Assembly: GCA_029706075.1 (NCBI GenBank)
Contig: JAINUG010000004.1
Span: 3,595,413-3,659,412 of the forward strand
Source of the DNA: Aldrovandia affinis
Taxonomy: Eukaryota; Chordata; Actinopteri; Notacanthiformes; Halosauridae
Length of the DNA stretch: 64,000 bases
Reading direction: 5' to 3'
The translations under genes were made by a program, and so were the position numbers. Below, one piece after another: positions 4,287 to 48,900 of the stretch; the first letter of the stretch is position 1, and the number at the start of each line of letters is the position of its first letter. Under the pieces are notes generated by a model, which did no database searches, was not told where the DNA came from, and worked only from the letters and a program-made list of their open reading frames with translations.

Positions 4287-4492
4287 TAAGCGTTTAAAAT
4301 ATTTTTTAAAAAACATGTTAAAAAAAACTCAAAGAAAAAAAGAAACGACGACTTAATATTAAATAGTACCCAACAAGAAAAAGCAACTAAAAATAAAATA
4401 AAAAAGAGCAAGACGCCTCTGTTGTGAAGACTTTTTTTGGACCTTTCTCAAACAGATCAGATAGATGTTTTGTCCACAAGATTGCACGTATA

Positions 4493-5576
4493 ATGAATGC
4501 TCAGCTGTCGATGGAAAGTATTGGCGATCTGCACGGAGTGAGCCATGAACAGGTGCCCGCCACGGCTGACCTGATGAGCAGCAACAGCCCTCATCACCGG
4601 AGCCCGGTGGCCCATCGCAGCAACCACTTGTCAGTCCACGCGCGCTCAATGGGCATGACCTCAATCCTTGACAGCGGCGACTATCATCCTCACCGGCCCC
4701 CGGACCATGGTCTGGCCGGTCACCTGCACCCGGCAATGACCATGGCTTGCGAGGCTCCCCCCGGCATGAACATGAGCAGCACCTACACTACGCTGACTCC
4801 GCTGCAGCCGCTACCTCCCATCTCGACAGTCTCGGACAAGTTCCCCCATCACCACCATCACCATCACCACCATCACCACCCCCACCAGCGGATCCCGGGA
4901 AACGTGAGCGGCAGCTTCACCCTGATGAGGGACGACAGGGGTCTGGCTCCGATGAACAATCTCTACGCTCCGTACCACAAGGATGTTACTTGCATGGGAC
5001 AAAGCCTGTCCCCCTTGTCTGGATCCGGGTTGGGCGGTATACACAACTCCCAACAGGGACTGCCGCCTTACGCACACCCGGGTGCCACCATGCCTGCGGA
5101 GAAGATGCTAACGCCCAACGGATTTGAGGCTCACCACCCTGCCATGCTGGCCAGGCATGGGGATCAGCACATGACCGCGTCCTCGGCGGGCATGGTGCAG
5201 ATTAACGGTTTACACCACCACCCTCACGCCCATCTTAACGCGCAGAGCCATGGCCAGGTCCTGGGCTCCGCCCGGGAGCAAAACCTGTGTTCTGTGCCCG
5301 GATCGCAGGTCAGCAACGGAGGCAGTTCAGGGCAAATGGAAGAAGTCAATACCAAAGAAGTAGCGCAGAGGATCGCCACTGAGCTTAAAAGGTACAGCAT
5401 CCCCCAGGCCATCTTTGCCCAGAGGGTGTTGTGCCGATCGCAGGGGACCCTCTCCGATCTCCTAAGGAACCCCAAGCCTTGGAGCAAGTTGAAGTCCGGC
5501 CGGGAGACTTTCCGGAGAATGTGGAAATGGCTGCAGGAGCCTGAATTCCAAAGGATGTCTGCTCTCAGGCTCGCAG
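4493..5576 (+). CDS. onecut1: onecut1 coding exon 1 (N-terminal region and CUT domain)
   Basis: This exon encodes residues 1-361 and the first base of codon 362. The N-terminal 280 residues are rich in His, Ser, Pro and Met, with the stretch from TYTTLTPLQPLPPISTVSDKF to the His run nearly identical to mammals. The single CUT domain (EVAQRI... to ...RMSALRLA) fills the 3' end. The exon is CpG-rich against its AT-rich flanks. It ends GCAG|GTGAGC; reading through the donor would add only about ten unrelated residues before a stop at 5609. Confidence 0.96.
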
Positions 5577-6858
5577 GTGAGCGAACAATAGGTAATTTAC
5601 CCTTTTTATAATGGTCTTGCTACTTTGCGTGCTTGGTATGTTGTTTGGTTCCAAAATCAAATGCAAAACATGTAATGTCAAAAATGTATCGAGTGGGTTT
5701 GTTTTGATGCAACGTTGAGCGTTTTTTGTTCTTTTTGACATGTGATAGGTAGCTGCCGTCCAAATAAAAATGACATACCCTCTTAAAGCTCTTATATGTG
5801 TTTTCGGTGCCGTCCTTCTAGCATTTCTGGAGACCAGTCCAATTTGCAATATAGACTAATCTGTTATTTGTAAAGCGATGCTGAAAATGGTTTGAAATGT
5901 GTTTGTTTTGTGCACCCGGATGCTTTGGAAACATTTCGAATAGCCACTGTTTTGGCTTGTATGCTAAATACAAATTTTATAAACAATTTATTTGTGTTGA
6001 TTTTGTACTAGCGGTTCGGTGTGTATATTCTAATGTAAACACTTCACACTTGACTTGTAGCTGTGATGTGAAGCTGTGACCTCTTGGGATTACCACAGCT
6101 CTATTGTCTCCATATGACAATGTGTAATAGAAGCCAGTAAGGGGTTTCCATTTTGGTTTTTAATTTAAACACTTTTTCCATTTTATATGTCCTGCATTTT
6201 ACTTTAATGTTTCAATAAGAGGAAGAATGAAATGTTCAACGTGTATGTCAGATGGTTAATACATTTTACAATTTTGAATATAAGACTGCCTTAGAATTTA
6301 CTAGATAGACATACGATTAACTATGTGCAAGATCCTGGGTTGTGGAAAAACTGTTTTCTGCAGCAGGAATACATATCTGCTAAACACCGTTTTTGTACGG
6401 CACTGGGGTCCGTGGCTGTGCGTTTCCCCCATTCATTTAATATCTTTTTGAATTACACTTCATTAATTCAATTCATTTTGCCCCGATTTCATGTTGTTTT
6501 GTTTCTGTGTGAAACATGCTAGGATCCAGTGACGCGGGCCTGAGTGAGTTTTTGTTAATTAACTGATAGGTCTCCATTAATTCGTCCCTGGAGATTGAGG
6601 GAGTCAATCCGTGCGCGAGTCATAGGCACTGATCCGTTTCACAGACAGGCAACGTGATCCTTTCTCCTTCAAGTGCACAAAGGAAGTACTTGAAAATGTA
6701 TAGCCTAAATTATGCACGTTGTCCGCTTGTGGTTTTCGAAGAATACCCACTTTCCAATAAGTGTGCTTGATTACACTTTCTACAGTAAATCTCAATTGAT
6801 TATTTGAAGTTGTTTATCCCTGTCTTGCAATCTGTTACTTTTGTGTGTTTGTGTGTGC

Positions 6859-10000: not shown

Positions 10001-12506
10001 CAATACATTCGTTCTCGATCGAGTCTAAACTATATTGATATAGTCATATAAACTATATTGATATATATTGACTTTTTTAATATGGAGTGTATGAAGATAT
10101 GCATACATGTATTTTTTGTTTTGTTTCAAAGAACGACGTAGGCCTAGCACTTTCAGAACCATGGCCAGCACTTTATGACTACAAAACAACAGACCCTTTT
10201 AAAGGTATATAATACATAATTTCCGCGAAATATTTGGGATTTCCGTTGTTTTCTTAATTGTCCTGCGTCCAGCTCCATAATGTTATACGGCGGCGCTAAT
10301 AATAATAATAAATAATAATAATAATAAATTGCATTCTTATTCAATATTATTTAAAATTACGATTATTGACTGACCCTTTTTTGTTTTGCATTTTAATTTA
10401 CTAATGCATCCAATGTCGCTTGTATCACCTTCATTTGTTTATTGGAATGTAACGAGGACACATTTAAAAAAAGACATGGCCACAAGTATCCAATAAATTT
10501 GCTTCATAGAGCAAAAAAGCATACATACATGGTAAATAGTAATGATTTGAAATCTGCCAGGTTCTCCTTATATGGAAAGTGTTGTCTTACGGTATGACAG
10601 CCATGTTGGATGACGTATTCTTACTTCAGGAATGTAACAGGCCAGTAAAATTGAAAAGGTAATGCTTCTGCATTATAAAATAGGCCCTCTGGGGGTTACA
10701 CAATTTTGCACACAGATATGGTCCTTCAGTAGCCTGCTGAATCAGTGAAGACTACACATAACACATATATGGATATGTTACACAACAACATAAAGTGGCA
10801 TTCATTGGAAGTTGAACTATAAGTTGCTGAGTCACATGGTTTTGTGGCCATAGTATGGTGGGAAGGCAATGATATTTCACCATTAGATGTCTCCTTCTTT
10901 CAATATAAGCTATTGAGGGTTCTTGTAACCTTTAGTTCAGTCCTAATATTTCTCATCCCAATGAGTTGCTGCTGCTCATTGTCATGAAGTCTGGGTACCC
11001 TTAACAGTCTTTTTTGGACACACTCTGTGCCGGACAGAAGAGAATAGTCTCCCCTCTTTAGTCTGGTTCCTCCCAAGGTTTCTCCCTATCATTTTTACCA
11101 AGGGAGTTTTTCCTTGCCACTCTCACCTTAGAGTGGCTTTTGGGGGAGTTTAGGCCCTATACAAATCAAATGTATTTGATTTGATTGAACAACTCTACAT
11201 GTATATTGTATGGATGTGTACACTACGTGCTGTTTGCAGTTCCATACATTAAATTAGCAGACCTGTGCAGAACAGCTTAAAAAGCAAAGAACATAAGTTC
11301 ATACAATAGGACTGAGAGGGCAACAGTAACTACAGAAAAAGGACAGTAACACCTTTACTATAGAGCTATAGAACCAGTATACAGTTGAATGATTGTGTTA
11401 AGTGTGCTTCTATGGAGAACTTGTGTCTAACCTGATGCCATGCTAACATATGGTAGCATAAAAAATGACATTGTGAGTTTCATCCACACTTTCTGCCCTG
11501 CAGTAGCAGGGTGTTTACCTGAGTAAAGGTGAACAGCAATAAAATTGCATTCAGTATCTCACATTATCAGTGCCTGGCAATTTGCTTGTGACTACAAAGA
11601 TCAGTTATGCCGTTTCTATCAGGTAGCTCTTTAATTGGCTCTCATCTTTCAGTTTGCCCTATTTTCCCATGTTTGGTTTACAGTTTTCTTTGTATTAGAA
11701 AGTACTGTACTATTGTACAGTGGATATGCACTGCTTCCAGTCTAAACCATGTTTTTAGTTTTTTTTGCTGAGTCAAATCAGTGCATATCTTTCCATCTGC
11801 ATATTTTAAAAGTTCATAGAAGACTCATACAAATGGTTTTCCATTGCTATTCAACATTTTGAGTGTGTGTGTCTGTCTGTCTTGGGGAGGTGGGGGGGCA
11901 GGGGGGTGTAGGGGGTGTTAATTATTAATACATTTTACTATTTTTAAAATGTATTTTTTTCCTTTATTTAACCAGGTGGGGAAACTGAGAATTTAATTTT
12001 GTAGTGATGACATGGTGAATAAAAGTGGGGAGGGAATGCAAGGGATTGTGTAGTCAGTTATCAGTGGTGGAAATGATTAGGTGGGCAGATGTAGAAAGAC
12101 AGTTTTGTTGTTGTTGTTGATGGGTGTGCACGTGCATTGGTCATAAACATGTTTTTTGTGAAGTCTGACATGCCTCGTCTGTTTCTGTCTCTTGTTTTTG
12201 CGCCCTGCAGCGTGTAAGAGGAAGGAACAGGAGCAGGGGAAGGGAGAGAGGGGCAGCATCTCCAAGAAGCCCCGGCTGGTCTTCACAGACGTCCAGCGCC
12301 GGACTTTACATGCAATATTCAAGGAGAACAAGCGGCCGTCCAAAGAATTACAGATCACCATCTCGCAGCAGCTGGGTCTGGAGCTCACCACCGTCAGCAA
12401 CTTCTTCATGAACGCACGGAGGCGGAGCCTGGACAAGTGGCTGGACGACGGGAGCTCGATCTCAGCCATCTCCTCATCCTCATCGAGCACTTGTACCAAA
12501 GCATGA
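4493..12506 (+). CDS. onecut1: onecut1 / HNF6, CUT-homeodomain transcription factor
   Basis: Two coding exons, 4493-5576 and 12211-12506, join in phase 1 across a GT-AG intron (donor GTGAGC, acceptor CCCTGCAG) to give 459 aa; human ONECUT1 is 465 aa by memory. The protein opens MNAQLSMESIGDLHGVSHE and ends SSTCTKA, like mammalian HNF6. It has an 11-residue histidine run (119-129), a CUT domain (about 281-361) and a divergent homeodomain (about 381-440) with the F-x-M recognition-helix signature (NFFMNARRR). The family binds ATTGAY-type sites and drives liver, biliary, pancreatic and motor-neuron programmes. I chose the ATG at 4493 over an in-frame one at 4424 because conservation begins there. 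No frame breaks are seen. atosa follows on the same strand. Confidence 0.97.
6863..6928. repeat. (GT)n microsatellite
   Basis: About 33 uninterrupted GT units, preceded by an imperfect GT-rich lead-in from 6841. Open frames across it (poly-Cys-Val, poly-Thr-His) are artefacts. Confidence 0.95.
6997..7042. repeat. (ATT)n microsatellite
   Basis: About 15 ATT units, followed by a short interrupted continuation of TAC and AAT triplets to about 7097. Confidence 0.9.
8078..8268. repeat. Long near-perfect inverted repeat (hairpin or MITE-like)
   Basis: The left arm (from 8078, GCTATTTAGTCTGCACTTTT) is matched by the reverse complement of the right arm (ending 8268). About 55 bases pair with only two mismatches; weaker pairing continues inward through ATGTAT/ATGCAT stretches to a central loop of TA repeats. 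It is either a small palindromic transposon or a structure able to form a long stem in DNA or RNA. No flanking target-site duplication is obvious and I recognise no family. Confidence 0.75.
10033..10076 (+). promoter_or_regulatory. Cluster of ONECUT/HNF6-like sites
   Basis: Three TATTGA cores lie within 44 bp: TATTGATA at 10033 and 10056, and a perfect match to the HNF6 consensus DHWATTGAYTWWD at 10064-10076. The first two fall in a short imperfect tandem duplication. The location inside the onecut1 intron suggests possible autoregulation, but AT-rich DNA yields such motifs by chance. Confidence 0.3.
11030..11190 (+). repeat. Teleost dispersed repeat fragment
   Basis: The text TCTGGTTCCTCCCAAGGTTT, followed by GGGAGTTTTTCCTTGCCACT and an end in TATACAAATCAAATGTATTTG, matches a very common interspersed repeat of teleost genomes remembered from many fish loci. 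Its class is not resolved here. Confidence 0.55.
12211..12506 (+). CDS. onecut1: onecut1 coding exon 2 (homeodomain)
   Basis: This exon completes codon 362 (GCG) and encodes CKRKEQE..., a basic linker, the divergent ONECUT homeodomain (RLVFTDVQRRTLHAIFKENK onward) and a serine-rich tail ending STCTKA, with TGA at 12504-12506. The homeodomain is virtually identical to mammalian ONECUT1; the tail (DDGSSISAISSSSSST) has small substitutions only. Confidence 0.96.
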
Positions 12507-15366
12507 TAGGGTTAAAGACTGCAGACTGAAACCACGGTGGAAAAGCTTTAAAAATAAAACACACAGAAGCCTAACTCTAGACAGTCGGTTTTTGTCCTCA
12601 AAATCGTGTCTGAGGGGAAAAAAAGTGACCATACTGATGACGTACCGACGTCCAAAGAAAACCCAAAAGACTTAAAAAAAAAAAACCAAAGACTTCTTTC
12701 ACGCGCATTAGAGACTTTGTTCTGCAATGCATTTCAGCTGGACACCTTGCAAAAAAAGAGGAGATACGTTCAGAGAAGAAAAAAACACTGGTCGTACACC
12801 TTTGAACCTCAAACTCTCAGCCCCCCTCCCCCACTCTCCCACGTGTCATTATTGTCTAACATCATTGGAGGTTTAAACGGAGGCTCACAGTGGTGTCCTT
12901 ATTCGTCACTGATTGGTCATTATTTCTGCCCATGGTGTTTATATAGCTTTCTCATAAAAGGTGTATGATGCAGAGGGTAGAATAAAACACTGTGTGAGCC
13001 AGTGGGAAGGGATCATGTAGGACTCGCCTATATGACAGGAACTGTGCAAAGGCACGGTCTGAATGCTGTGCAGCCGTTAGTGTTCTTTTTCAGTATCCCC
13101 CCCACCCCACCCCGTCTGTCGGGAACTCAGAAACACCTGGGAGCAGAAAGATCCATGTTTCCGTCTTGAGAGTTCCGTCTTGGCGAAGGTTGTTTTGAAT
13201 GAACACAGACCAAGTAGTGCTTTCTTCCTAATTGTTGGAGACATATACAAGAAAACCAAAAAGCCAAAAAAAAGTACCTACACACAGAAACACTCCTGTA
13301 TAGATTGGGAAGTTGTTTCAAAATTACACAATATTGTATTAAAAACCAAAGAAGAAAGGAGTTATATTTTATCCAAAGAGTATTTTTACAGTGTTCTGTA
13401 ATACAAATCATCATGACTGTTAAACTAAATGGTTTAGGGTCCTCCCCATAGGACACAGAGCGATTTAGCAAAGTTGTGCTTACTCATAGCTTATATTTAA
13501 ATCACTTTACAAATCTGAAACTCAACTTGAAAGGAAGGAACCTAATTCATGTCTGTATAAAATGTGATTTATCTGAGCTTTTATTTAGTTGTGTCGCCTT
13601 CTTGTAGAAATAAAGTAAAAAACATTTTCATTCTCCTCTTGAAATAGATTTTAGAGCGCAAGTAACATAATAGTGAGCCTTTACATGTGGTGTCAATTTC
13701 AGGAGTGCATCCTTTAAGAAGCACTGTAGATTATGGAATCATTTGAAAATAATTCCTCAAATGGCTTTATACGATAACATTCAACAAATCTCGTTTTAAC
13801 CTAACTATATTAAGTACATTTAGATTGACTGACATACTGTAGCATTGATCAGATCAGTTTATAAATTAAGCCCTCGGAAATGAATTAAGCCCATATTTTC
13901 AGAACATACATTCACAAGGTCCAATGTTTCAACAGAGAGGAAAAAAGGCATATCAAGTCAGCGAGAAAGACCTTCACTTCCTTTGCCTGTCTCGTCAGTG
14001 AACTGTGCCACTCGTCACTTCTGCGTTAGTGGGATGTTTGCATATGTCATCGTTATTATTATCATTCCCGCTATTAGACATTTAGACGATACTTGATATT
14101 TTCAGGGAGAGCAATGATGCCACATAAGCTTTACAAAACATCCTTTGCATAAGATGTGTTAAAATGCCAGCTGCTAAGAACCAAAGATTGAATCTTACCG
14201 AACAGCATTTTGTATATACAGTATGTGCTCTTCTCTCACCGGGTCTGTAATACAATTCCATTGTTCTGGTTCCCTTTCTGATTCAGGGACTGTTTGAACA
14301 CCACCAATACAGAAATATCATTCAGCACGTGTAAAAGAAGAAACGTTTGAAAATGACAATGAGTTGCTTAAAATTGACATCAAGAGAACGGGTTAGGCTG
14401 CATACAATTCGGATGCTTTGCGTTCTTACATTTCATACTGCCGGGGGTCGGCATCTGTAATGTGTGATGTGCCCTGTGTCTTAAGAAGATATATCAGACT
14501 GGTTTAGCACACAATGCTAGGCACAGCCTGCCTCAATTGCATAACCAGCCCAAAACCTTAAGCAGAAATGTCAGACTGACCACAAGAGGGAAGAGAGCGC
14601 AGAGCTGCTTGTGTGTTTCTAGGAGCCTCCAGCTGTTCTGTCGCTGGGAGAAGACGCAGTAGAGCTCTTTCAAACGTAGACTGCATTTGCAGAATCACAG
14701 TGCATCGAAACACCAGCCTCTGATTCAGTGCCACCCCGCCATTCTTAGCCCTGTCCATGTCACGAGTAAAACAGTGACAGCAGACTTTGTCATTATCATA
14801 GCAGTGTGTGTTTTAACCTTTTAGAATTTCAAACTTGCATTATATCCCCCCAACTTTAAGCTTTTTACAAATGGGATATGATGCAGGGTCCGTCTGTCTG
14901 TCATCGGAGTTATCTCGGTGAAACAGCTTTGTAGGAGCTGCCTGTCCAACTTGCGCATCAATCAAGCAGATGTAAGCGCCGTAGGATTTGAGCTTCACTT
15001 GTTACTGTCTTTTTACTTGCTACTTTCATCTGTCACCTAGAAGAGCGAATGGAAACTATGCATTTCACAACTGGGAAGAAAGCACTGCGTGAACCTGTCC
15101 AGAAATGGACCAAGTGGTTCATTATCTATAGGCCTGCTGTACGGATGGTTGTCCAGTTTGTTACCATATTTCTGGCCTTGTTGTTTCCTGTGGCGTTGTT
15201 AGCTTTAACATGACACACTTGGTTACCATGTACTTGTATTACAATGATTAAGCAAAGTCATCTTAAAAAGCAGCTAGCTGCTTCCACGTGTAAAAACAAT
15301 AAAAAAACAACCCCCAAAAAAAGGAAAAACTAAATGTGTAAAGACCCTCTACTATTTATAGTGTGA

Positions 15367-15441
15367 ACCAAAGATGCTACCTCACTCTATTTCCATTCGT
15401 GATTTTAATCACATTAATGATGATACCAAAGATTACCAAAG
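15367..15441 (+). promoter_or_regulatory. onecut1: Dense microRNA site block (three miR-9, one let-7)
   Basis: Three miR-9 8-mers (15367-15374, 15424-15431, 15434-15441) lie within 75 bases, together with a let-7 8-mer CTACCTCA at 15377-15384. The last two miR-9 sites start only 10 nt apart, too close for both to be bound at once. A miR-124 7-mer GTGCCTT lies downstream at 15651-15657. Confidence 0.5.
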
Positions 15442-17133
15442 ATTTTTTCTTGCACGGCCTACACGAATGATGTGGTGGATATTTGCTGTTTCTGCTCTTT
15501 GCCCCCTTGCCCCACTCCCCACCCCCACCCTAAACACACACCATTCAGCCCCTCCCCTCCAGTTCTCAGCTCCACCCCTTTCTTCATTAGTAATCTAATA
15601 ATAAAGGTATAGGCAAACATGTTGCAAACTTTGTAAAACCCACTGGACGAGTGCCTTGCTTGAACCAAAGTGTTGAACCGCTGTCGACCTCTATGATCTC
15701 TCACCTTTTTCTCTTATACCTCAGCCTCTCGTAGGGCCACTATCGAAGAAAAAAGGAATACTTCTCTCACCTTGGTGCTTTTGCCAGCGCAATCATGCAA
15801 TGAAAGCATACCAAAGGAATTTCTTTTCTCTTTCCACTTTTTTGCTGACAAACCAAAGCTTTCCCCCATGCCCCCCCCCCAACCCTCTTTGCACCCACAC
15901 CCCCAACACCCCCACCCCCACCCGAGTCCTCCTCCCACTGTCTGTGTCATCCCTAGGAATATCCACTGTGCAGGTCATGCATCTCTTTTACCAATGTCTC
16001 TGAATACCTCATAGTAATAATTCTTTAGGGTTATGTTGTATAGAGAGTCTATGTGATTAAGGCAAAAACTTACCTAGTTTGATAACTGTTATCATTACTT
16101 CAAAAAGCATTACAATTATTTATTTGGAAGTTTTGGTCGGAACCACTCTGTTTTGGTCACGGGTGATGTGGTTTGAGGAAATGCGGTGGAGGTGTGCAGG
16201 AGAGAAAGAAAAAACAGACTTATTTTTTATTAAGATATTGTGTTATTCTAATATTGTAATGATGGTAGACTTGTTTTTTTAACAGGGTAATACCAACTGC
16301 TGTGATAATGTGTTCATATTTCCTCCTTTCTCTACTTCTGTGTTGTGATTCAATTTAATTTAATCGCATTTTGTATGGCTTAATCACTGTTTTAATTTAT
16401 GCATTTGTAGAAAATATAGATTTGTATATAGCAGGTTTTGGGGAGAAAATCGACATTTTATGTTACAACCTTATTTTTCATGCTTAGATATGTTGAAGGA
16501 GTAGGATTTTTTACTGTGGGGGTAACCTTCACAAATATCTTAGCAGGCACTTCGATGTGTTCTAAACACTGCCAAGTACCAAAAAAATGTTGACCGCCGA
16601 TGAAAACACGGTTTTAAGGTGTTACCATGTTACTCAAATGGCAAAAAAAGCAGTGTATGTGTTTTTTGTATTATTTTGACTTTTTAAAAGAAAAAAATAT
16701 GTTATTTTATGGGTATTACTGCACATCCAAAGATTTATTGAAACAAATGAATAAACCAAAAAGGAAAAAAAAGAAAAAAAATGTTTAATGTTGAAAAGCA
16801 CTGGCATTTGTGAGGTAGAATTGTTGAGTTTTAATTTGCCATTCGCACGGGTATAGAACTTAGAAGGGTGTAGGACTATGTAGACGAGCAAACTCGACCG
16901 TTTGGGATGTTCTGTCAAGTGTACAATCTGCGGGTGTTTAAACAAGGGCTGCAAGCCCTGCTAACTTTGCTGTCTCATGCACAGAGTAAGATGGAGTCTA
17001 GGCTGGGCAGCAGGTCTGCCGGGGGCTGTGTCACATTGCTGGGTACGTTTTTATTCATGTGGCACCGCTGTCTAGTTCCATCGAGTATCTGTTATTTTGG
17101 TGCGTACTCGTGTAATGACAATGAGCAAAGTCT

Positions 17134-17139
17134 AATAAA
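17134..17139 (+). terminator. onecut1: Candidate distal poly(A) signal of onecut1
   Basis: This canonical AATAAA is the last one after the miR-9-rich stretch. A CA/GT tract beginning about 90 bp downstream could supply a GT-rich downstream element. Proximal alternatives exist at 13609 and 15600. Confidence 0.4.
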
Positions 17140-17227
17140 TCTCCAAAGAAACTTATCAAGGAATCAATCTGTGTCAGTCTATGTGCAATGCCGCAGCACA
17201 TGGCCTGTGTTATCAAGTGGTTTATTT

Positions 17228-17230
<3 letters not shown>

Positions 17231-17320
<90 letters not shown>
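17231..17320. repeat. (TG)n microsatellite
   Basis: About 45 uninterrupted TG units just beyond the inferred end of the onecut1 3' UTR. Frames across it are simple-repeat artefacts. Confidence 0.95.
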
Positions 17321-23033: not shown

Positions 23034-26000
23034 GTAAATATAACATGACATTAGCTCGCTGTTCCTGACTTAATTTACAGACGTCTGACCTTAGCTGTGT
23101 GACTTAATAGGTGGCTGTTTTGTTTTTTGCCACATTACAGTTATTGCAGTCGACGGGGACTGTCTATGTAGAGGAATGCCTTTATTCGTGTGGTTCCCTG
23201 GAGAAATCGTAGGGGAGAGAATGATGTAACAGCTGGTTAACTATTCCGCCTAATGTATGTCAACAATGAAGCCTTTGTCATAGAATCAGATCTGTTATAT
23301 AAAATGAGGACAGAATTCGTGCAAATGTCATATCTTAAAGCCTTCGTTTTGCCAGGTAAACAGGGAAAGGGGAAAATATGTCCATGTGTATACCCTTATT
23401 AGTGTCAATCCTCGTGCGTTTATTTTTTCCTCTTGTGTGGATAAAAAATGTGCATTTGACGTGGTGTTTGCTACAGCGGCTCAGCTGAACAGCTGAGCAA
23501 CATGCTTTCTCTCAGCCACAATGTAACCCTTGTGTAGCGTTTCTTCGCAATTCAGTCAAGATGTTGCATGGTTTAACCGTTAACTTGGCTAAGTATGATA
23601 CACTTTTGAACCCTAACTACAAATATCTACGTTGTTTCGATAGCCTAAATACATTGACATACCATGTTGTTTGTGTTGAATTGTACTATACTGATTTACA
23701 CATAGCCCAAAACAATAAGAGTTTATCTCGATTCAAACATCTTCGTCTTTTTTAAATGTATATTTAAATGTGTTATTTTTTGTTAACGGTACAATCAAAC
23801 CAATACGTTTACTGGCTGTAGCTAAGTATTTTATATCAATTGTCATGAAAGTTATTTAATTAGTGCTACCCTGTTCTTTAAATGAATGTAGGTTAAGTTA
23901 ACACACCTTGAAACCACAACACAAACTAATTGGGATACCTTTTCACCAATTTAGCCATAATGTGATCAATTTAGTGAATTGAATAAATGGAGGAGGTGTC
24001 TGTGTTTAGACTAAACTTGTAAATATCTTAGAGGTCATCACCACAAAAACTGCTGATACGACTTTTTGACACAGATGTGCTACTTCTCCCAGACTCCCAG
24101 ATCTTCACCTGATCATAAGGGTCATTTCAAAGTTGTATGACTTTTGCAGGATGATGTGGGTGATTGTCATGTTATCTCATCCACACCTGCAAAAACAATC
24201 ACTGTTAAGCATCGTGGGACGGGTTGCCTCAACATTTAGCTGAAATGCTAAATATTTCCACACAACTGACTGAAATTTGATGCGGTGATCCCTGATGTAG
24301 ATTTAGACCAAAATAGCTGTGCTCAGACCACCAGCCTATTGTAGCACAGCAGACAGGCAAGATTATTTTGAACAGCCAATCGTGGTTTACAGTAAGCAGC
24401 GTTCCCCATCGCATGCATGGCTGTGTTTTTTACATTTTATTTTTTACTTTCTGTGAGATCAATAATATTGTTTTATAGTGTTCATTTCAACCCTGGCTCA
24501 TGCTGCGCTCTTAGAGATTCCTCTTGGCTTAGTTCTTGGCTTGTTCCATTTCTTGGTTCTATTAATAAAACCCCTGAATACAGTTGAAATGGTGCACTGT
24601 AGAGTCTCCTATATCACAGAGCTCTGTGCCCTTGCTATTCGGAACATATTGTTTCCCAAGCAGGAACTGCAAGCCATGCTTTTCTTGGACTCCTTTCCTG
24701 TCTCACTTATTAGTGTGGTTGGTACAGCATGTAGCTGTTTGTTTAAGCACAGTCGGCAGTGGTGTGTAAGTTAAAGCCCAATGTGTTCATAATTTGATGC
24801 CTCTAAGACCAGCCACTCCACACCCCCACCCCCTTCAGCACTAATGGGTGAGTGTGATATCTCCAGCTGAATGATATATCTCACACATGTTAATAGAGGA
24901 GTCAGTGGAGGCAACTTTTCAGTGCACATCACCTGATGGGGAGACTTGCTAAACAAGGGACTTTCGTGGCATTCATAACAGGAAACAACGCTTCAAGAGG
25001 GAGTTGCCTCTTAGGTTTGAATTTCTGCTTTGTGTAATCTCCCTTGTCTTAGTAGAACAAGATGTCATACATTGATCATTAACTATCGTCTCAACAGCTT
25101 TTGTACAATGGCCTGTGGTATTATTTTTGATGGAGGAAATCTACACAGCCTGCCTTCTTTATGGCTTTCAAAAAAAAGTGTTTGCCACTCTAAACCGTAA
25201 TTGTGAACATCATGCCCTGAATTTTTACTCATGCTAGAAGCAGCCAGTTGTGGTTGTTTGTCACGGGGGTACAAAGCACATTATAGCTAGCAGAGATGAC
25301 TAACGCGTGGAGGCCATGTGGAAAAGGTGTTAGCTCGGAGAGCAGCTGTCAGATTAAACAAATGATGTCAGCCTTAGTCAGAGTTTGCGAGGTCGCGAAA
25401 ACCTGTCAGCATCGCACTGAGTGGCTAAACAAAGTCAGCTGTGAACAAAGGCGATTTTGACCACCTCGAGATTGCAGCCCTGTTTGTCATGAAGTCGTTT
25501 TCCTCTCAATCAGAAACTGGATGTTTCTTGGGGGCGTCCCGCGGAGAGAGCGATTAAACTCATTTATTGTCGCTAATGTTCCGGGTGGAACTTAACTGAC
25601 GGTCAGGACTGAGAGAAGGAAACACTCAACTCTCCCAGTTCTGTTTTTTGTCCAACAGTGGTTTGTGGATGAATTCCCATTGAAATGGGAGCGTTTTGTT
25701 GTATGTCACACTGTCAGGGTGATGCTCATCATCTGACTTTTAAATAAAGGAAGTTCACTTTAAAATAGTGCCAGTGGCATGTATGTCTTTTAGGCAGAGC
25801 ATATCAATGTATTTTATATGCAGTTTGACCCAGAGAACTGCAACTGTGGTTCTGTGTGGCTCAGTAGGTAGGGCATGGCGTTGGCAACGCTTAGGTTGTG
25901 GGTTCAATTCCCACTGGGACGACATACTGAAAAATACGTTTACTACTGTAAGTCGCTTTGGATAAAAGTCTGCTAAAAGGCGTATATTATTATTATAGAA

Positions 26001-29000
26001 GCGAGCAAGTCATACGGAAAGGTGTGTTAAAGTGTCTAATAGAGCAGCACTGTAGCCGTACCAGCAATCCTCTACTTCTCCTTTTTTTGTTTTAGATTTC
26101 TTATTTCTTTTAACTGGAAGTTTAAAAGCTTTTGCATGTGTACACAAGATTTTAGTCCCATGTTCTAGACACTGCCTCGCTTGGTGTAGGAAAAGGGTCC
26201 GAGTCAAATTCTCTTTATTTATTTATTTTTATATCTGGCCCATGTGGGCGAACCGCTGCTACTGTTGTGTAAACATGACTTGTTTGCAGTGAAAAGGCCT
26301 GCGGGGAATAGAGCGATTTGGTTATAAACAAACACTGCTCGGTCTGTTCCGTGTTGGAAAACACCAGTGGGACACGAGGGCACTTTACACCAGCGCGGCT
26401 TACGACTATGTCGTGCAAAGAGGGCCTCTGCTCATCTACCGCAGCATTGTGCTCATCTCCAGCAGCTGTCAAAACAGATCATCACATGGCCGGCAGGTCG
26501 CTCTTCATCGAGATTACCCCGACGTGTGATTATCATAGGGCAGCACTTCCAGCGCCGCCCCAATGCCGAAGACCGGCCGCCGCTCTTGAAAGTCGACCCG
26601 GCGGCGGGTATTTTTAAGGTATCACGGCAGGACCATCTGTGCCAGTAGGTTTCTCCATGGGAGTATGGCGGCCTGGACGTGCCCTGCACAGAGTGCGTGC
26701 TGGCCGAAAGCTGGCCCTCGCAACAGGCCAGCGCACCCAAGGGTCGGAGTGGGGGCAAGTGGATATAAATGGAAACGGTGCTGGAGCTGTTTGTTTTGGA
26801 AAAAGTGGCAACTGTGCACAGCGGCTCTCATTTCAGAGTTTTATTCCAGAACTATATTTAATTCCCACAGCATGATATGTTGCCTTTTTTTCCATTTTCG
26901 TTTCTCCAAACATTCTAAGATTAGCACCGTCCGTTGGCCAATGGCTCTCGTGTCGGCTTGAAGCCCATGGAAAGTTTCTGCTGTGTTTTCTTACTTGGGG
27001 ATCTGTTGACTTTGAAATATGTGAGTGTGCCGCACATCAGATTATTCTGTGAAGCAGCAGGAAATTGAATTTTTGTTGTTAATTTATCAGCTTGTTGAGT
27101 ATTTTATGGAGGTAAAGCACGCACATGTTTAGCTTGGGAAAATCTTGTGTGTGTGGTGGAGTTGGCCAGATATTTCAAGAAAATTTCCAGGTTATTTCCA
27201 GCAGACCTCTTCAGACTCCACTACCACTGAAATCTGTAAATTTAAGTAATTGTTATCACCACTGCTTACATGTTTAATACTGCTTTTTGTAATATGTATC
27301 CATGTTTAAAACTGTCTCAAAAAATAAAAAAATAAACTAATACAGGTACAGGTATGGTATGCAGCTGCCAACAACAATGTCTATCGCTGTATTACTGCAC
27401 TGATCTCTTGCGCGAACAGTGAATGATCATACAGTACTATGTATTAATGCACATCTTGTAAGTTGCTCTGGATAAGAGCGTCTGCTAAATGCTTAAAATG
27501 TCAAATATAGACTGGACACAGTCCGGTGAAGTGGTTGAGTTAAAATAATGGTAAAGCTCGGAGACTTATCAAGCTAACTCTTCTTGATAAGACTAGAGGT
27601 TTATGTTAAATTTTTTGACAGAGTCAGACTGAAATCTGCCTGGGTCACGTTACAGAAAGACCGGGAGCATGTTTGTGATAACAGTGCGTTCCACGTATAG
27701 GAATCAGTCACAAAATAATTGAACGCATTTAATGACGGTAAAATCACTCTAGAAAAAACTATAAAAGTCCACACTTGTAAGTACCCCAAAAAAATCTGAC
27801 ATTGTTCGATAAAATGTATTCCCGTAAGAGGAGCACGCTGTTTGTTGAAATGGTCCTGGCCTTGTGAGGCTGAAAGCACAGGGCCAGGTGTCTGGTCTCC
27901 ATGGGGAGGACGCAATCTTATCAGCCCTGAGGCAAAGGACAGGGGCATTGTGTGGTATCTTCAGTTTTGTTTCCATTCAAGAGTTTCCACGGAGCATTTT
28001 CTCACACGCACAAGGAGTGTTTGCCTTTTGTTCAGCGCCGCTCAGATCGGGTTTAAAAGCTGCAGTGGAACTGAACCGGTGTGCGCAATGGAGGCCGTCA
28101 CAGTAAGAGGATACCCCGTTCTTCCTGATTACAGAGCTCTTATGCAAGGACTGATTCGCACACAACAGGCAGTATGGCCAAGATCTCTCTCTGCCCGTGA
28201 CTCAGACATGGACCTGTTTATAGGGAGCCCTGGGAAACGGACATTGTTCATTATTTGCGCTCTGTACGGTTGAGGAATCGCACCCGTTCATGGGTCGGGG
28301 CTACATATATCCAGATGTTTTACCGTGTGGAAATTATATATATATATATATATATATATTTTTTTCATCATTTGTGTTGGCATCCGCATTCCTGTACGGT
28401 CTCTGCACTAGGGTACATATTGGAACAGTACATTCATTCTGAATCCTGAATAATGTGCTTTGCAGATTGGACACAGACGCTGCCGATCTCCAGTCCAGTG
28501 AACTTTAATTAATGCGGTGGGTCTACATGGTCCACACTGTTATTGTCAGTGCACATGGTGGTGTCCTGCATATATCCACCACCATATGAGGGTGTCCTGT
28601 CATTTCAGAGGGTGAAGGCGGTGTGTAAAGGACTGCAAAGCTGGGGCAGCTGACGCAGGAGTATAGCTGTGTATAGCTGAGGAGGTGTGTAGGAGGATAG
28701 CTGAGACGCTGGGGGCCAGTGAGATGGGGGGGGGAGGGGTCACCCTGCTGACCGAAACTGTCCATCCCCGATGACCCTATGGTCATTTCCACATTGCCCT
28801 TCGGAATCCCAGCCGCAGTTGGCGTTGACACAGTCCGGCAGTTGCAGCAGGGCCACAGGAACACACCACAGAACCGAGCAGGAGTGCATTGGCCGGATGC
28901 TGTCCTCCGCTCCTTTTGATGAAATGGTCCGGTTTGTTTGCCAAAGCAGTGTCGCAGAATCGCTGATCCAGAGCAGTGCTGTCGTAGCCTGGTTGTGGAA

Positions 29001-32000: not shown

Positions 32001-33825
32001 CGGTTTATGACACTGACAATTTGAGCCATTTTTTCGTTGTTCATGGCTTCAGAAAATGGGGAAGAGCTTTGTGGACTGAACATGGTTCTGTGCAGCTCAG
32101 TAGGTAGAGCATGGTGCTGACAACGCTTGGGCTGTGGGTTCGATCCCCATTGGGGCCACATATACTAAAAAATGTATGCATTCACTACCGAAAGTCGCTT
32201 TGGATAAAAGCGTCTGCTAAATAGCATGTATATAACATCCAAACATTTTTATGTGGCTGCTTTTTTTTGTAGTTACACTGTTACGACTGTAGTTTATAAT
32301 GTGGACTGGCTAGATGGTCTAGTCACTATACATCTTTCCACAAACAAAACCAATACTGCAGAAGATAACTACTGTCTGGGGCCCTGTGACCATTACTCAG
32401 ATAAACAATGTTTAATTCAAAGGCATTTATCATTCCTATGTAACGCACCAATTAGTGAACCTTCATTGAGATGATTAAAAGCTTTTACCAGCTTTAAAAT
32501 GGGCACAATTCAAACCGCTGAGAAGATATCACTTTCAGATTATGCTTTCATAACAAATTCCTTTTTTTAAATGCCCCTGCCCCCCTCCCCAAATCCCTAA
32601 AGTTTCTAAACTTTTTAACAATGCTAAAATGGCATGCTTGCCCTGCACATTGAGGCACAGAGCAGCTGAGTTTACAAGTGCTGAGCGAGGAGTTATAGTC
32701 CCAGCCTGTGCTGCCAAACAGGCAGGAAACCATTCCGGAGGTTCCCGGCCAATCATATCAGAGGGCTTGTTGCTATGTGAGTACAGAGTCTGCCTCCTTT
32801 GTATGGGTGGGGGGAGAAAAAAAGCAAGGATCCCATGCCTCGCCCTGCAACAACAGTGCAATAGCAGTAAAGGAACACAAGGACTTCTGTAGACATCTGG
32901 ACACCTCAGATTACAGAAGTACAGTACTAGCCAAAGTACAGCTGGGAGGTGGGGGGTAGACTCAATTAAAACGGAGCAAAGTTGTTTGAGTTCTCCTCTC
33001 TCTGTTTTTTATGAACCACTTTTTCACCAGGCAAGCAAGCATAATACACTAGAGCGTCTATTTAATCAAACACTGATCTGAATTTGACGTCACTCGGCTG
33101 TTATCTGCGATAAATTCACAATGTAGCCAATGTTTGGACTGCAGAGTCTGTGTAAAATGATAAAGCAAAGGGAGTTTCTTACTTATTTTTTGGCGTCTGC
33201 TACTCAAATGTGTGTGGCAAGTGGTCTCAGCTGATTAAGCCAAACTAATTGTTTAATTGGCCCTTTTAACCCTACAGATACAAATTTGCTTTGGTACTAA
33301 ATCTTTGGTTTGCTTTGGTACTTTGGTACTAAATAGACACCTCTCCCAGAAAAGTATTTCTGAGATGTTGAATCCAGAGCAGCAATCAACTGCTCAATCA
33401 GCCTTGGCCAATTAAGGACATTTTTCAATTAAACCCTACGGTCAACTGTGGTCAATGGTCAACCGTGACCAGGGTGTAGAAATGGCAATCCATTAACGTT
33501 AGTGAGATGGTAAGGTGTAGATTTCTGTACCGTCATTTTTCCATCTTAAGAGAAATGTGAGGAGTGGCGTAAGAGGATCAACCTTGTAAGAAAAGGAGAA
33601 GAGTGCCTGTAGCCGTGAATGTGAGAAGTGGCTTTAGAGGAGGAGCATTAGGAAAGAGGTGTGGTGTGTGTGTGCGTGCGTGCATGCGTGTGTGCGTGTG
33701 TGTGTGTGTGTGTCTGGCTTCCCTTGGAAGGGCCTAGAGCAGAACTCTGCAGCTGATTGCTGAAGACGGTCGGGTTGAGATAAGGACTCCAGGGAGAGGG
33801 GAGAGAAAACAGCCCTGCCCTCTTT

Positions 33826-36900: not shown

Positions 36901-39900
36901 GAAGATCGGTCTTCACTGAAGTTAAATGGATAACTTCTCATTCTAGTAGTGGAAATGCATAAGCCATAAGCAATGTGTGAGGTTGTGCAACTACAGATTA
37001 AGTGTGAGGGGAAAACATGCCATTGTGCTAAATTATTTTTAAAAACTTGATGATGATAATAATAATAGTTATTTAATATCAGAAGAAGAAGGGATTTTGC
37101 TTTCGGATAAGGCTGGTTTTTCATTAGAAAACAGCATGTTTTTTCCCGAATGGCTGTAGTTATATAAACTGAAATCTCAGTACTTCTATGTAAATCTGTG
37201 GATTTAGTGGGGGAAGAAACCACACAGTACTATTTGATTGTGTCCACAGTAAAAACAGATTATTCAATAATCGTATTTTATGGCTGTGTGTCTAAACAAG
37301 ACCTGCATTATCTATTGATGCACAGCCTTCCCTGGAGCACGCATGACACTTGTCTGTTTGTCTGGCTCCCAGAGGATGCTGGGAAGGGACAGCTGTATGG
37401 AGCACGTGTGTGCAGGATTATGTAAGTGGTGCATTATCACAGATGCCTGTGAACGGCAGGATCTCTTGGTACAAATGTTTCATAATTAGTAGCCATTATC
37501 TCATGTTCTAAAAAAATTTGGGAACCAGTCTCTGGAACCACATAGAGTGCCCTTTTAAAGTCTAAACCCCAAAATGACTAAACAATGTCACCTTTTGTTG
37601 CCTTACAGTCTGAAATTAAAACATATTAAATCAGACTTTCCACCTTTATTTATATATTTTACCCTACAACTTCCAAGTTAAAAAACGATTTTCTACATTT
37701 CTGAACATTAATTAAATATAAAAAAAGTAGAATAACTTGAATTGATAAGTCTACATCCCGCTAAGTTAGTACTTGGTAGAAGTACCCTTTGCTTGAATTA
37801 CAGCCATGAGTCTGTTTGGATATGTCTCTACCAGCTTTGCACACCTAGATTGGGCAACGTTTTGCCATTCTTCCTTACAGAACTGTTTAAGCTCAGTCAG
37901 ATTGCCTGGGGACCGTTGAAGGACTGCCCTCTTCAAGTCATTCCCCAGGTTTTCAATACGGTTTAGGTCAGGGCTCTGACTAGGCCACTCAAGGACATTC
38001 ACCTTTTTGTTTTATAGACACTCCACTGTTACTTTAGCTGTGTGCTTTTGGTCGTTGTCATGCTGAAAGGTGAACCTCCTTCCCAATTTTATCCTTCAGC
38101 AGGTTTTCCTAAAGAAAACTATCCTTTTGCTCCATCCATTTTCTCTTCTATCCTGACAAGTGCCCCAGTCCCTGCTGACGAGAAACACCCCCATAACAGA
38201 ATGCTGTTCTTTGGGTGATGTGCTGTATTGGGTTTTCACCAAACTTTTTGCATTTAGGCCAAAAATGTATATCTTGGTTTCATCTGACCACAACACTTTT
38301 TGCCATGTTTTTTTTTTTTTGCATACCTCAAACGGGACTGAATATGGACTTTGAGTAGTGGCTTCCTTCTTACCACCCTACCATACAGACCAGAATTGTG
38401 CAGAGCTTTCTGTATTGTTGACACATGCACACATTGACCACTCTTTGTCATAAAGTCCTGTAGTTCCTTCATAGTTGCCATTGGCCTCTTGGTGGGCTCT
38501 CTGATCAGTCTCCTCCTTGCTCGGTCATCCAGCTTGGACGGACGGCCTGATCTAGGCAAGGTCCTGGTGGTGCCATGCACCTTTCACTTCTTAATTATGG
38601 TCTTGACCATGCTCCAAGGGATATTTAGTTTTTTTTAAAGCTCCTTGTTGCTCATGGTGGATTCTTTGCTCTGAAATGTACTACCTAGCTGGAACAGCTG
38701 GAACAGCAGGTAAAATGTGTAAATAAAGATAAGAAAAGTCTGATTTAATACACTGCCTGGCCAAAAACTAAGCAAATAGGTAAGAGCCTTCCATTGGATA
38801 ATTACTGCAGTGATTAATATGTTTTAGCTGGCAACAAGTTATTTAACCCTAACTGATGCAGTGAGTAGCTTCTCATTTCTTAAACAACCATGTCGGAAGA
38901 CATATCCTGTGGTCGTGGAAAAGATGTTAATCTGTTTCAGAAGGGTCAAATTATTGGCCTGCATCAAGCAAAGAAAACAACAAAGGAGATTGCTGAAACT
39001 ACTCAAATTGGGTTAAGAACTGTCCAACATATTATTAAAACCTGGAAGGATAGTGGTGAACCATCATCTTCGAGGAAGAATGTGGTCGGAAAATTTTTTT
39101 GAATGATTGTGATCGGCGATTGCTTAAACGTTGGGTGAAATTATATCGTAAAAAATCAACAGTAGAACTCACGGCTATGTTTAATAGTGAAAGTAAGAGC
39201 ATTTCCACACGCACAATGCGAAGGGAACTCAAGGGATTGGGACTAAACAGCTGTGTAGCCTTAAGAAAACCACCTGTCAGTGAGGCTAATTGGGAAAAAA
39301 GGCTTCAATTTGCTAGGGAGCATAAAGATTGGACTCTGGAGCAATGGAAGAAGGTCATGTGGTTTGATGAGTCCAGATTTACCCTGTTCCAGAGTGATGG
39401 GCGCATCAGGGTAAGAAGAGAGGCGGATGAAGTGAAGTGCCTATACATACAAGCCTGTGGGGGCAGTGTTATGATCTGGGGTTGCTGCAGTTGGTCAGAT
39501 CTAGGTTTAGCAATGTTATGTGCCCAAAGAATGAGGTCAGCTGACTACCTGAATATACTGAATGACCAGGTTTTTCCATCAATGGATTTTTTCTTCCCTG
39601 ATGGCACGGGCATATTCCAAGATGACAATGCCACGATTCATTGGGCTGAAATTGTGAAAGAGTGGTTCAGGGAGCATGAGACATCATTTTCACACATGGA
39701 TTGGCCACCATGTCCAGACCTTAACCCCATTGAGAATCTTTGGGATGTGCTGGAGAAGACTTTGCGCAGCGGTCCGACTCTCCCATCATCAATACAAGAT
39801 CTTGGCAAAAAATGAATGCAACTCTGGACGGAAATAAATGTTGTGACATTGCAGAAGCTTATCGAAACAATGCCACGGCGAATGCGTGCCGTAGTCAAAG

Positions 39901-45900: not shown

Positions 45901-48900
45901 GTCAGTGCAGCTGATGAGGAGCTGGTGTGGAATTTCTCCCAGCCCCCGGCCGAGCACGCCTTCCCGGTTCCCAACGTCTCCCACAGCGTGGCCCTGAAAG
46001 TCCAGGTCCAGTCCCTCCCCAGACAGCCCAACTACCCGGTCCTGAAATGCAGCATCCATGCCAGCCTAACCCTCTTCGGAAAGAAGGGCTATGACCAAGA
46101 GGAGAGGCCCGTCCAGCGATGTGATGTCACCGATGCCGGCCAGCATCGATCGCGAGACCCTGCGTTCACCAACCCCGCCCACCCCCCATCCCTTACTCTG
46201 TCGTCAATTCAAAGAAATGCCAGCTCCCAGAAGCCCTACCTCCCAGTAAAGCAGCTAAGTGGCTGTACTCCAGACTGAACAGTAGCTCTGATGTCAGGCC
46301 CTTGGAGGGTTACGTGACATCAGGGAGCGGCGCAGAGGGGTCAAAGATGGCCGCCCCTGAGGTGCCGGTCAGAGCTTTCAAGTCCCTCTCCCTGGTGGAT
46401 CCGATGTCGGCGTCCACCTCCAGACCACTCCTTGGTGAGACCAGCCCCTTGATTGGTTCCCTGCTCCAGGAGCGACAGGAAGTCATTGCCCGCATTGCCC
46501 AGCATTTGAATTACTGTGACCCCACAGCCCCGCACATCCCCGAAAGCCTGTTCGGCGGGCCTGAGGCCCAGGCCCCCAAATCCCCCTGGTTCCCGCAGGA
46601 AGAAGCCGGCCTCCTCAAAAAGTGCAAGGAGCCCCTTTCCTCGAGCCCCGAACATGCCTCCTTGCAAGAGGGCTCCCCCCCAGAGAACGAGCGTGAGAGG
46701 AGGAGCAGGTCCTCCTCCTCTGACACCCCCCTCGGCTTCAGCAGCAGAGCCAAGGCGGACGGCGACCTGAGGTCTTCCCCCAAACCGGCAGCCTGCAGGA
46801 AGCTGCTCCTGCCTGACCCTACAGAGGGCTCTACAATATCAGAGGCTGTGCAGGACATCTCCAGGCTAATCCAGGACACCTTCCAGAAGTCTCAGAGCAG
46901 GTGCACAGAGCTCTTGCACCACACCTACAAGGTCTGCAAAGAGGACGGCGTGCCCAGAGTGCCGAACAGGCCGGAGCGAGAGCGCTGCAACCAGAGCGGG
47001 CAGGAGCACAAGGGCCACGCGCCGTGCCAGCACAGCTTCAGTTCCCATGTGACAAACAACGGCAGCGGCTCACACATTTGCACAGACTCGAGAATCAGCG
47101 GGATAAAATCGACCGACAGCGTTCAACAAGATTGTTCTCTCAAACCTCAGAGCGAGGCCCGTGTGAAACACGAAGACCCGACGGCTGAACCAGAACCAGA
47201 GCTGAAAACCTCACACAAAAATGCCAAAAAGGACGGGTGTGACTCCTCGGCTGTCGACTGTAAGAGGCAGGCGGCCTGAAATTCACAGACGGCTCCCTCC
47301 TCGAAGAGGCCAAGAGTTTGAAAGCCCAAAGCCAGCCAAGTACACAGTATAGCCATCTGCAGGATGAGAACCATGACCCTTCAGCCTCTAGCACATCAAC
47401 CAGCCTTCCCCAGAGGGACCTCAGAGTCTGCCCTGAAACAGCACAGAATGGGACCATCCTGGTAAGTCCCCATATTTGCAGAGCGGTACAAATGACAGGA
47501 AGTTTTTAAATATGTCATTTTGCAACATCACAGATTTGACTAATTAGTACCGAACGCGAAAAAAATTAAGTATATATGTATATACAGTGTATATATACAA
47601 TATTTTCATATATATATTATCTTTTTTTCCATCTAAAGTTCGACTTAGGTTTTGTAGGTATAACATTTGCCAGCCAATGATTGCCATGAACTTAATTCAA
47701 CGCCTTTTATTCAGCTAGTTATTATATTTGAAGCCAATTCAGCATCACCTGTTTGTTGTTGTTGGTGTGTTATGATTTGCTGCGGTTTTCACCACACACT
47801 CTTTCACACAGAGAGCAAATGGCCAGGTTCCTCTGAAGTCATGCAATATTTGGAAGAAGCAGAATCGTCACTCCATCGACGGGACGGCAACAAAAGCTTT
47901 CCACCCTTGCACCGGTCTACCTCTCCTCTCCAGCCCTGTGAGTGCCTCTCAAACACAGAGTATATTTCGATCACATTAGACATTAGACTGTTCATCATCC
48001 TCTCCCATTTCTATCTCACTCACATTAGACATAGCTAAAGACTACTTTTACGCTAGTTTTTTTCCATTTTGGCACACACAGGCACACATTTGGCACAAAT
48101 CATTTAGATTTTTCATTGTCTTTTCCCCTCAAATAAGACTTTTATACGTTTACTTTCATCATTCCTTCTTCCTTACGTTTCAGATACATCAAGACATAAA
48201 GACCGATTTTTATCTAGCTACGTCTCTTGTCCCTTTATTGCCATAGCTAATGTACTGTACTTCAATATTTACTTGAATAGAGCTTCTATGGTTTTGTGTT
48301 AATGACTCAACCTTGGAGTCATCGGTTTACCAGCAACCGCTCACAGTCCTCCCCTCCTTATGGCGTGGCGGTTTAGCTGAGCAGCAGGGGAAAAAGGGCC
48401 TGTGCATCCCTGCCAGTTTATTGGTGCAGCCGAGTCAGACCCCGTGACTCACACGTCTTCGCCCGCCAGGCCAAGAGAAGCTGTGACTAACTTCCCGCTG
48501 GAGCCGTCACTGTCCAAAGGCAGAAAGCCCCAGTAAAACTTCCATTTCCTGCCTTTTGTTGAGCACCCCGTTTGACGGGCGAGCGCAGAAGCCCCAGCTC
48601 TAGTGCAGCTTTTTATGGACTCTCGCCCGTTTCACAGCGAGTTAATGAATAGCAGACCCTTCATCCGGATGTCGCTCGGGAGGGCCCACGTTTCACGGCT
48701 AATTTTCTCCGAGTTATCCATTTCAATTTACTTGGAAGCGTTTTAAAACAGTAGATCCCTTCACATCCAGTTATTAGTCCGTGTTTATTATCGTAGCGCA
48801 CGCTAACACTGTGCCCTTTGTTTGTTTCTTGCACTCGTACCTGGAAACGTGACAGGGAGTTTATCCACTTCCCCCATAGCTGCCCCTCTATAGGAAATAT

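Follow-up and report, generated by a model that had tools for sequence, protein, structure and literature searches.

A cluster of miR-9 seed sites in the 3′ untranslated region of onecut1 from Aldrovandia affinis, predicted to be a conserved microRNA target

The DNA analysed here, hereafter called the window, is a stretch of 64,000 nucleotides from the fish Aldrovandia affinis (positions 3595413-3659412 of contig C1911, in a genome of 1.22 Gb), and it carries a two-exon onecut1 gene whose long 3′ untranslated region (UTR) is crowded with matches to the seed of the microRNA miR-9. All coordinates given below are those of the window unless a contig is named, and the gene and the sites assigned to it lie on the forward strand. 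The coding part of exon 1 (4493-5575, with an approximate exon end, within the open reading frame 4397-5611) encodes a CUT domain (Pfam PF02376, E = 5.8e-34), and the coding part of exon 2, placed by its translation at 12211-12506, encodes a homeodomain and terminates with the TGA codon at 12504-12506. When the CUT and homeodomain sequences are joined, the best match in the PDB is HNF6 (2d5v, E = 8.5e-89), ahead of ONECUT2 (8t0f, E = 4.3e-81). With a single CUT domain, a divergent homeodomain and HNF6 as its closest match, the gene is onecut1 (HNF6). Its 3′ UTR is assigned to 12507-17160.

An earlier note on this DNA had listed six perfect miR-9 8mers (ACCAAAGA) and six 7-mers (three ACCAAAG and three CCAAAGA) in this UTR. 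Every one of these is present on the forward strand, with the corrections that the two near-overlapping 8mers placed at 15424 and 15434 actually start at 15425 and 15435, and that a further CCAAAGA at 13373 had been overlooked, which brings the total to 13 seed sites rather than 12. The 8mers are located at 12685-12692, 13345-13352, 14180-14187, 15367-15374, 15425-15432 and 15435-15442. The 7mer-m8 sites (ACCAAAG) follow at 15664-15670, 15810-15816 and 15852-15858, and the 7mer-A1 words (CCAAAGA) lie at 12652-12658, 13373-13379, 16727-16733 and 17143-17149, the last of these being a doubtful site.

For counting, we used the interval 12508-17154, which extends from the stop codon to shortly beyond the AATAAA sequence at 17134-17139. 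On the sense strand this interval holds 6 copies of ACCAAAGA, 9 of ACCAAAG, 10 of CCAAAGA and 13 of CCAAAG, and on the antisense strand it holds none of any of these words. Among 2000 dinucleotide-preserving shuffles of the interval, the corresponding means (and maxima) were 0.18 (2), 0.65 (5), 0.61 (5) and 2.25 (9), and no shuffle reached the observed value for any of the four words; the expectation that chance would yield less than one 8mer in this stretch is borne out. Across the entire window and both strands there are 15 copies of ACCAAAGA, compared with a shuffle mean of 3.7. The estimate of about four copies outside the UTR was too low, as there are five on the forward strand (3820, 5351, 18857, 30127 and 36808) and another four on the reverse strand (3741, 33302, 59840 and 60843). 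The shorter word CCAAAG is evenly divided outside the UTR, with 24 sense and 24 antisense copies in the window. Among the seeds of 70 microRNA families, miR-9 shows by far the largest excess in the UTR (9 matches versus 0.63 expected, Poisson P = 2.5e-8), and the runner-up is miR-203 (P = 0.025).

The site cluster had also been proposed to mark the true extent of the UTR, and several characteristics agree with this proposal. The AATAAA at 17134-17139 is conserved in a duplicate onecut1 gene on contig C613, and this is the basis on which the UTR end was inferred. The two copies are nearly identical around this signal, and their likeness disappears within a few dozen bases downstream. The sense bias ends as well, given that the 10 kb past the UTR contain one sense and four antisense copies of CCAAAG. 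The doubtful site at 17143 starts only 3 bases past the AATAAA and reads GCAAAGA in the duplicate, and it may thus lie at or beyond the cleavage site. Shortly past the inferred end there is a long TG repeat (17228-17320).

Conservation was assessed with the paralogous genes of the same genome, which contains eight onecut genes arranged as four pairs. In a gene tree in which three of the eight genes are represented by the homeodomain exon only (their CUT part not having been parsed), the onecut1 pair (C1911 and C613) is supported at 0.996, the onecut3 pair (C1 and C1943) at 0.990 and the onecutl pair (C1794 and C2467) at 0.998. The members of the onecut2 pair (C2466 and C2200) are 97% identical and are separated from the others with a support of only 0.87, and C2466 has ONECUT2 as its best PDB match. 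We assigned the names onecut3 and onecutl by likeness. When aligned, the two onecut1 UTRs are 64% identical, from which we take this pair to be the product of an old duplication.

In the duplicate, ACCAAAG is found in register at eight of nine positions and the CCAAAGA-only sites at two of four, such that 10 of the 13 sites of all types are retained. These include the 8mers at 13345 and 14180, the 7mer-m8 site at 15852 and the 7mer-A1 sites at 12652 and 16727. For comparison, 657 of 4622 7-mers (14%) are retained overall, and 526 of 2205 (24%) if the count is restricted to the distal portion of the UTR, which is better conserved. Against all 7-mers, the retention of ACCAAAG is significant by Fisher's exact test both for the whole UTR (8/9, P = 1.3e-6) and for the distal part (6/6, P = 1.8e-4). 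A control with 7-mers of the same composition, of which 15 of 56 are kept (P = 6.7e-4), is too strict because it includes CCAAAGA itself (7 of 10 kept); without this word, 8 of 46 are kept. The 8mer at 12685 has a counterpart at about the same distance from the stop codon in the duplicate, but the alignment there is A-rich and its conservation ambiguous.

A further match is found in the coding sequence. In onecut1 and onecut2, in both copies of each, the coding sequence closes with ACC AAA GC. (12495-12501), which creates a miR-9 7mer-m8 match directly before the stop codon. This match is absent from all four onecut3 and onecutl genes. MicroRNA sites so near a stop codon are usually held to be weak.

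Within their UTRs, onecut1 and onecut2 match best at 15334-15460, where the sequences are 79% identical (BLAST against the two onecut2 copies, E = 9e-23 and 2e-19 for onecut1a, and 3e-19 and 2e-17 for onecut1b). Stronger and longer onecut1/onecut2 matches exist far downstream, beyond the assumed UTR ends, such as those at onecut1a p14699-15003 and onecut1b p8513-8962, and these were taken for putative repeats. The shared segment, hereafter the cassette, consists of a miR-9 8mer (15367-15374), a let-7 8mer (CTACCTCA, 15377-15384) that begins 2 bases later and, 40 bases further on, the two near-overlapping miR-9 8mers (15425-15432 and 15435-15442), whose starts are separated by 10 bases in onecut1 and by 9 in onecut2. 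In a four-way alignment of the onecut1 and onecut2 UTRs, the invariant runs of the cassette are GAACCAAAGA, CTACCTCACT, ATTTTAATC, ACCAAAGA and TACCAAAGAT. Two more collinear blocks contribute GAGTGCCTTGCTTGAACCAAAG, which combines a miR-124 with a miR-9 match, and ATACCTCAGC, ATACCAAAG and ATACCTCATAG. Invariant in all four UTRs are five miR-9 sites (the three in the cassette and those at 15664 and 15810), three let-7 sites (CTACCTCA and two TACCTCA 7mer-A1 sites at 15717-15723 and 16005-16011) and one miR-124 7mer-m8 site (GTGCCTT, 15651-15657), and the miR-9 site at 15852 is missing from the aligned onecut2 sequences. The earlier note mentioned neither the sharing with onecut2 nor the matches to let-7 and miR-124 that these conserved blocks also contain.

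Of the 10 invariant runs with a length of at least 7 bases, eight contain a seed match to miR-9, let-7 or miR-124. Over the three blocks, seed matches account for 13 of 46 invariant 7-mers and for 10 of 666 non-invariant ones (Fisher P = 4e-11, a value computed from overlapping 7-mers that are not independent). Permuted seeds gave a mean of 1.0 invariant matches, and 4 of 5000 trials reached 13. With miR-9 excluded, five matches were observed versus a mean of 0.58, a result equalled in 85 of 5000 trials.

In the complete genome, the miR-9 triplet of the cassette is found at four places, all of which are onecut1/2 UTRs, whereas the reversed pattern is found nowhere. The looser arrangement of a let-7 8mer followed by a miR-9 8mer at a gap of 25-55 bases yields 23 rows that correspond to 21 places. 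Onecut UTRs make up seven of these places and represent seven of the eight genes (onecutl on C1794 is missing). The excess of this arrangement over its reversal is the onecut genes themselves. A genome search for the overlapping sites ACCAAAGACCAAAGA returned 23 matches versus 27 for the reversed word, none of them in the window, and hence carries no signal. We also considered a structured RNA element at the cassette. Its predicted folding is unremarkable (z = -0.77, with 41 of 200 shuffles folding equally well), and therefore this candidate was dropped.

The cassette probably predates the separation of onecut1 from onecut2, and traces of it extend to other members of the family. The onecut3 gene on C1 contains the text TAGTGAGAACCAGTGTGGCTACCTCACTGA...TGATACCAAAGATTA, which resembles the onecut2 cassette with a decayed first miR-9 site. 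When this UTR is compared by BLAST with those of the two onecut2 copies, the best match falls on the cassette in each case (E = 2.5e-5 and 5.2e-4); its match to onecut1a at the cassette has E = 0.018. In the second onecut3 copy (C1943) the cassette is visible by eye, and BLAST against onecut2 gives E = 0.5 or no match. Neither of the two onecutl copies matches at the cassette by BLAST. CTACCTCA is present at a similar place in both onecut3 UTRs and in one of the two onecutl UTRs, and the other onecutl copy has CTACCCC where the let-7 site would be. The full miR-9 triplet is absent from onecut3 and onecutl, and in onecut3 the upstream miR-9 site has been lost and the pair reduced to a single site. 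On the basis of this BLAST pattern, we consider homology of the onecut3 cassette to be fair and that of onecutl to be unproven. The presence of the cassette before the onecut1/2 split thus appears well supported, and its presence before the split of onecut3 fairly supported. The genes separated in the course of the genome duplications early in vertebrate history.

Genes for all three microRNAs are present in the genome, with Rfam counts that are lower bounds for large families. Six mir-9 loci exceed the Rfam cut-off (12 rows, as both strands of each locus are reported, with 10 rows above the cut-off), and each of the six contains the mature miR-9-5p sequence of 23 bases. Three mir-124 loci and 21 of 23 let-7 rows are likewise above their cut-offs. 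One miR-9 gene on contig C2467 is about 250 kb from the onecutl gene (1205772 and 1456324).

Taken together, the identity of the gene as HNF6/onecut1, the sense-only sites, the six mir-9 loci and the retention of nearly all ACCAAAG words in the duplicate uphold the earlier proposal of a conserved cluster of miR-9 targets. Because the seed sites are dense, sense-only and conserved, repression by miR-9 and Argonaute is the best explanation for them, and we judge it highly probable that the onecut1 3′ UTR is a conserved target of this kind. Binding, repression and timing are predicted here from the sites, their enrichment, strand and conservation and from the microRNA genes. With some twelve canonical miR-9-5p seed sites, the UTR would allow miR-9/Argonaute to reduce onecut1 at the mRNA and protein level in neural cells. 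At a spacing of 9-10 bases there may be no room for two Argonautes next to each other, which is our own inference, and rebinding at the double site could also raise occupancy.

During neurogenesis, let-7 and miR-9 and later miR-124 would rise and jointly shut down onecut1 as an early temporal factor, a scheme to which we give an even chance. As general background, miR-124 rises with neuronal maturation. The switch from early to late motor neurons has reportedly been linked to miR-9 acting via Onecut (Luxenhofer 2014, according to its title), and La Torre 2013 is presumably the origin of the finding on let-7, miR-9 and miR-125 in retinal progenitors. In these progenitors the three microRNAs are reported to rise, and their overexpression to speed development (PMC7961372). 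Onecut factors mark the earliest neurons throughout the nervous system (PMC8612522). The proposed joint shut-off would be consistent with these reports.

Several observations weigh against these interpretations and should be kept in mind. The evidence for conservation comes from paralogs within one genome, and 3 of the 13 sites (12685, 13373 and 17143) have no in-register counterpart in the onecut1 duplicate. Further AATAAA copies occur upstream of the inferred end, for example at 13609, 15298 and 15600, and these proximal signals make short onecut1 isoforms without the cassette possible. Two of the 10 invariant runs (ATTTTAATC and GACCTCT) match no seed on our list, and thus not all of the constraint is due to microRNAs. 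The let-7/miR-9 pair is little commoner genome-wide than its reversal (23 versus 16). Neither let-7 (one CTACCTC versus 0.18 expected, P = 0.16) nor miR-124 (a single site, outside the 12 seeds of largest excess) is enriched in the onecut1 UTR, and therefore the support for both comes entirely from conservation. The miR-9/ONECUT section of PMC10914762 reports mouse OC1 to be without miR-9 sites, so the link between miR-9 and Onecut is not universal. Finally, human OC2 mRNA is reported to be resistant to miR-9 in 22Rv1 cells (PMC10356556).

Among the alternatives, the best survivor is that the onecut1 UTR chiefly serves other mRNAs as a sponge buffering miR-9 and let-7 and is not itself repressed. 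Such a role has been proposed for ONECUT2, which has up to 26 miR-9 sites and whose mRNA is the miR-9-resilient one just mentioned (PMC10356556). In contrast, miR-9 lowers the mRNAs of OC1, OC2 and OC3 in 293T cells and represses UTR reporters (PMC10914762). We consider the sponge improbable. It is also relevant that the mRNA of a transcription factor is seldom abundant enough to act in this manner.

Somewhat less probable still is that the conserved block is an enhancer acting at the DNA level, or a platform for RNA-binding proteins, in which the seed matches are incidental. The invariant runs do reach past the seeds, and the two runs that lack any seed match would suit this explanation, but a microRNA seed match is present in the remaining eight. 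Over the four onecut1/2 UTRs (with estimated ends for onecut2), CCAAAG occurs 62 times in the sense and 4 times in the antisense orientation, unlike what is expected of orientation-free DNA sites and unlike the even split elsewhere in the window, although this bias carries no weight against the version with RNA-binding proteins.

A recent, functionless local tandem duplication that multiplied the motif is very unlikely; the sites at 15425 and 15435 do form a 10-base tandem repeat, but most other sites are separated by tens to more than 1000 bases and have unlike flanks, and the recurrence of the pair in each of the four onecut1/2 UTRs, at a start-to-start distance of 9 or 10 bases, indicates that it is old. 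Equally unlikely is an origin by base composition, for although the UTR is 30% A and its commonest 8-mer is AAAAAAAA, the shuffles never reached any of the four counts, the sites are retained in paralogs and the genome search found the triplet in onecut1/2 only.

MicroRNA targeting by miR-9 remains our preferred explanation. The sharing of the cassette suggests that Onecut genes came under miR-9 control before onecut1 and onecut2 separated, and that let-7, miR-9 and miR-124 are coupled to the earliest temporal factor. In a broader form of this proposal, the genome duplications of vertebrates would have been preceded by one ancestral onecut gene whose 3′ UTR already carried a composite let-7/miR-9 timer cassette. 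The cassette would have passed to onecut1, onecut2 and onecut3, and perhaps to onecutl, with onecut1/2 keeping the miR-124 site and the double miR-9 site, such that heterochronic microRNAs would act directly to terminate the earliest step in the temporal transcription-factor code of the vertebrate nervous system. We regard this proposal as evenly balanced between being right and wrong. The cassette core at 15367-15442 offers a 76-base target suited to a clean test in zebrafish.

The window contains other features as well. An open frame at 39060-39815 encodes a Tc3-type helix-turn-helix domain (PF01498) together with a DDE_3 transposase domain, a further frame on the reverse strand (38254-38583) is transposase-like by eye, and a third, also on the reverse strand (57173-57889), matches DDE_Tnp_1_7 (PF13843) and is presumably a piggyBac-type transposase. 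A UnaL2 long interspersed element (LINE) 3′ element (Rfam RF00436) is located at 27446-27498; this family was first known from eel, and together with the eight onecut genes the element may hint at a teleost lineage that branched off early. Rfam also gives two tRNA-like matches that exceed its cut-off (25857-25914 and 32084-32158), perhaps derived from short interspersed elements. The open frame of 384 residues at 46125-47279 has no Pfam match and is a candidate for FAM214A/ATOSA, whose mammalian counterpart lies next to ONECUT1.

Control of Onecut genes by miR-9, including its role in the timing of neuron birth, is already published, and what would be new here is the ancestry of the cassette and the joint action with let-7 and miR-124. 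A search of the open-access literature, with subscription papers largely outside its reach, found no description of a let-7/miR-9 cassette that onecut paralogs have in common. Papers cited for miR-9 targeting of human and mouse ONECUT mRNAs are Plaisance 2006 and Luxenhofer 2014, and Madelaine 2017, as cited in PMC9641661 and PMC10515288, reportedly concerns miR-9 and onecut in zebrafish. Onecut is termed a validated miR-9 target in a paper on zebrafish neurogenesis (PMC9641661), and a frog paper employs an ONECUT 3′ UTR as a control reporter for miR-9 (PMC3361082). Computed targets of retinal microRNAs list ONECUT2 with let-7/98, miR-9, 27, 29, 96, 485-5p and 503 (PMC2821300); the combination of let-7 and miR-9 is that of the fish cassette, but this is a list of predictions for ONECUT2, and ONECUT1 does not appear in the passage concerned.

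The ONECUT2 3′ UTR studied in human prostate cancer (PMC10356556) is likewise very long (14.6 kb) and dominated by miR-9, with up to 26 sites, and miR-124 is named there as well. That work interprets the transcript as a competing RNA, and the portion consulted does not mention sites shared with ONECUT1. The closest parallel is provided by human and mouse ONECUT genes (PMC10914762), where the same microRNA meets the same gene family at several 8mer sites in the 3′ UTRs, and where miR-9 represses reporters carrying the human OC1, OC2 and OC3 UTRs. Unlike in the fish onecut1 cassette, let-7 and sharing among paralogs do not feature in the miR-9/ONECUT section of that paper. Sites 7 and 8 of human OC2, whose seeds are 2 bases apart, are the strongest sites of this mRNA in photoactivatable ribonucleoside-enhanced crosslinking and immunoprecipitation (PAR-CLIP) and are taken by the authors of that paper as a case of cooperative binding. 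The gap between the paired seeds is 2 bases in fish onecut2 as well, and 3 in fish onecut1. Given this matching gap, as reported for the human gene rather than compared in its sequence, the pairs in human OC2 and in fish onecut2 and onecut1 are probably the same ancestral pair, and the cassette may bear on the prominence of the near-overlapping sites in the human OC2 CLIP data.

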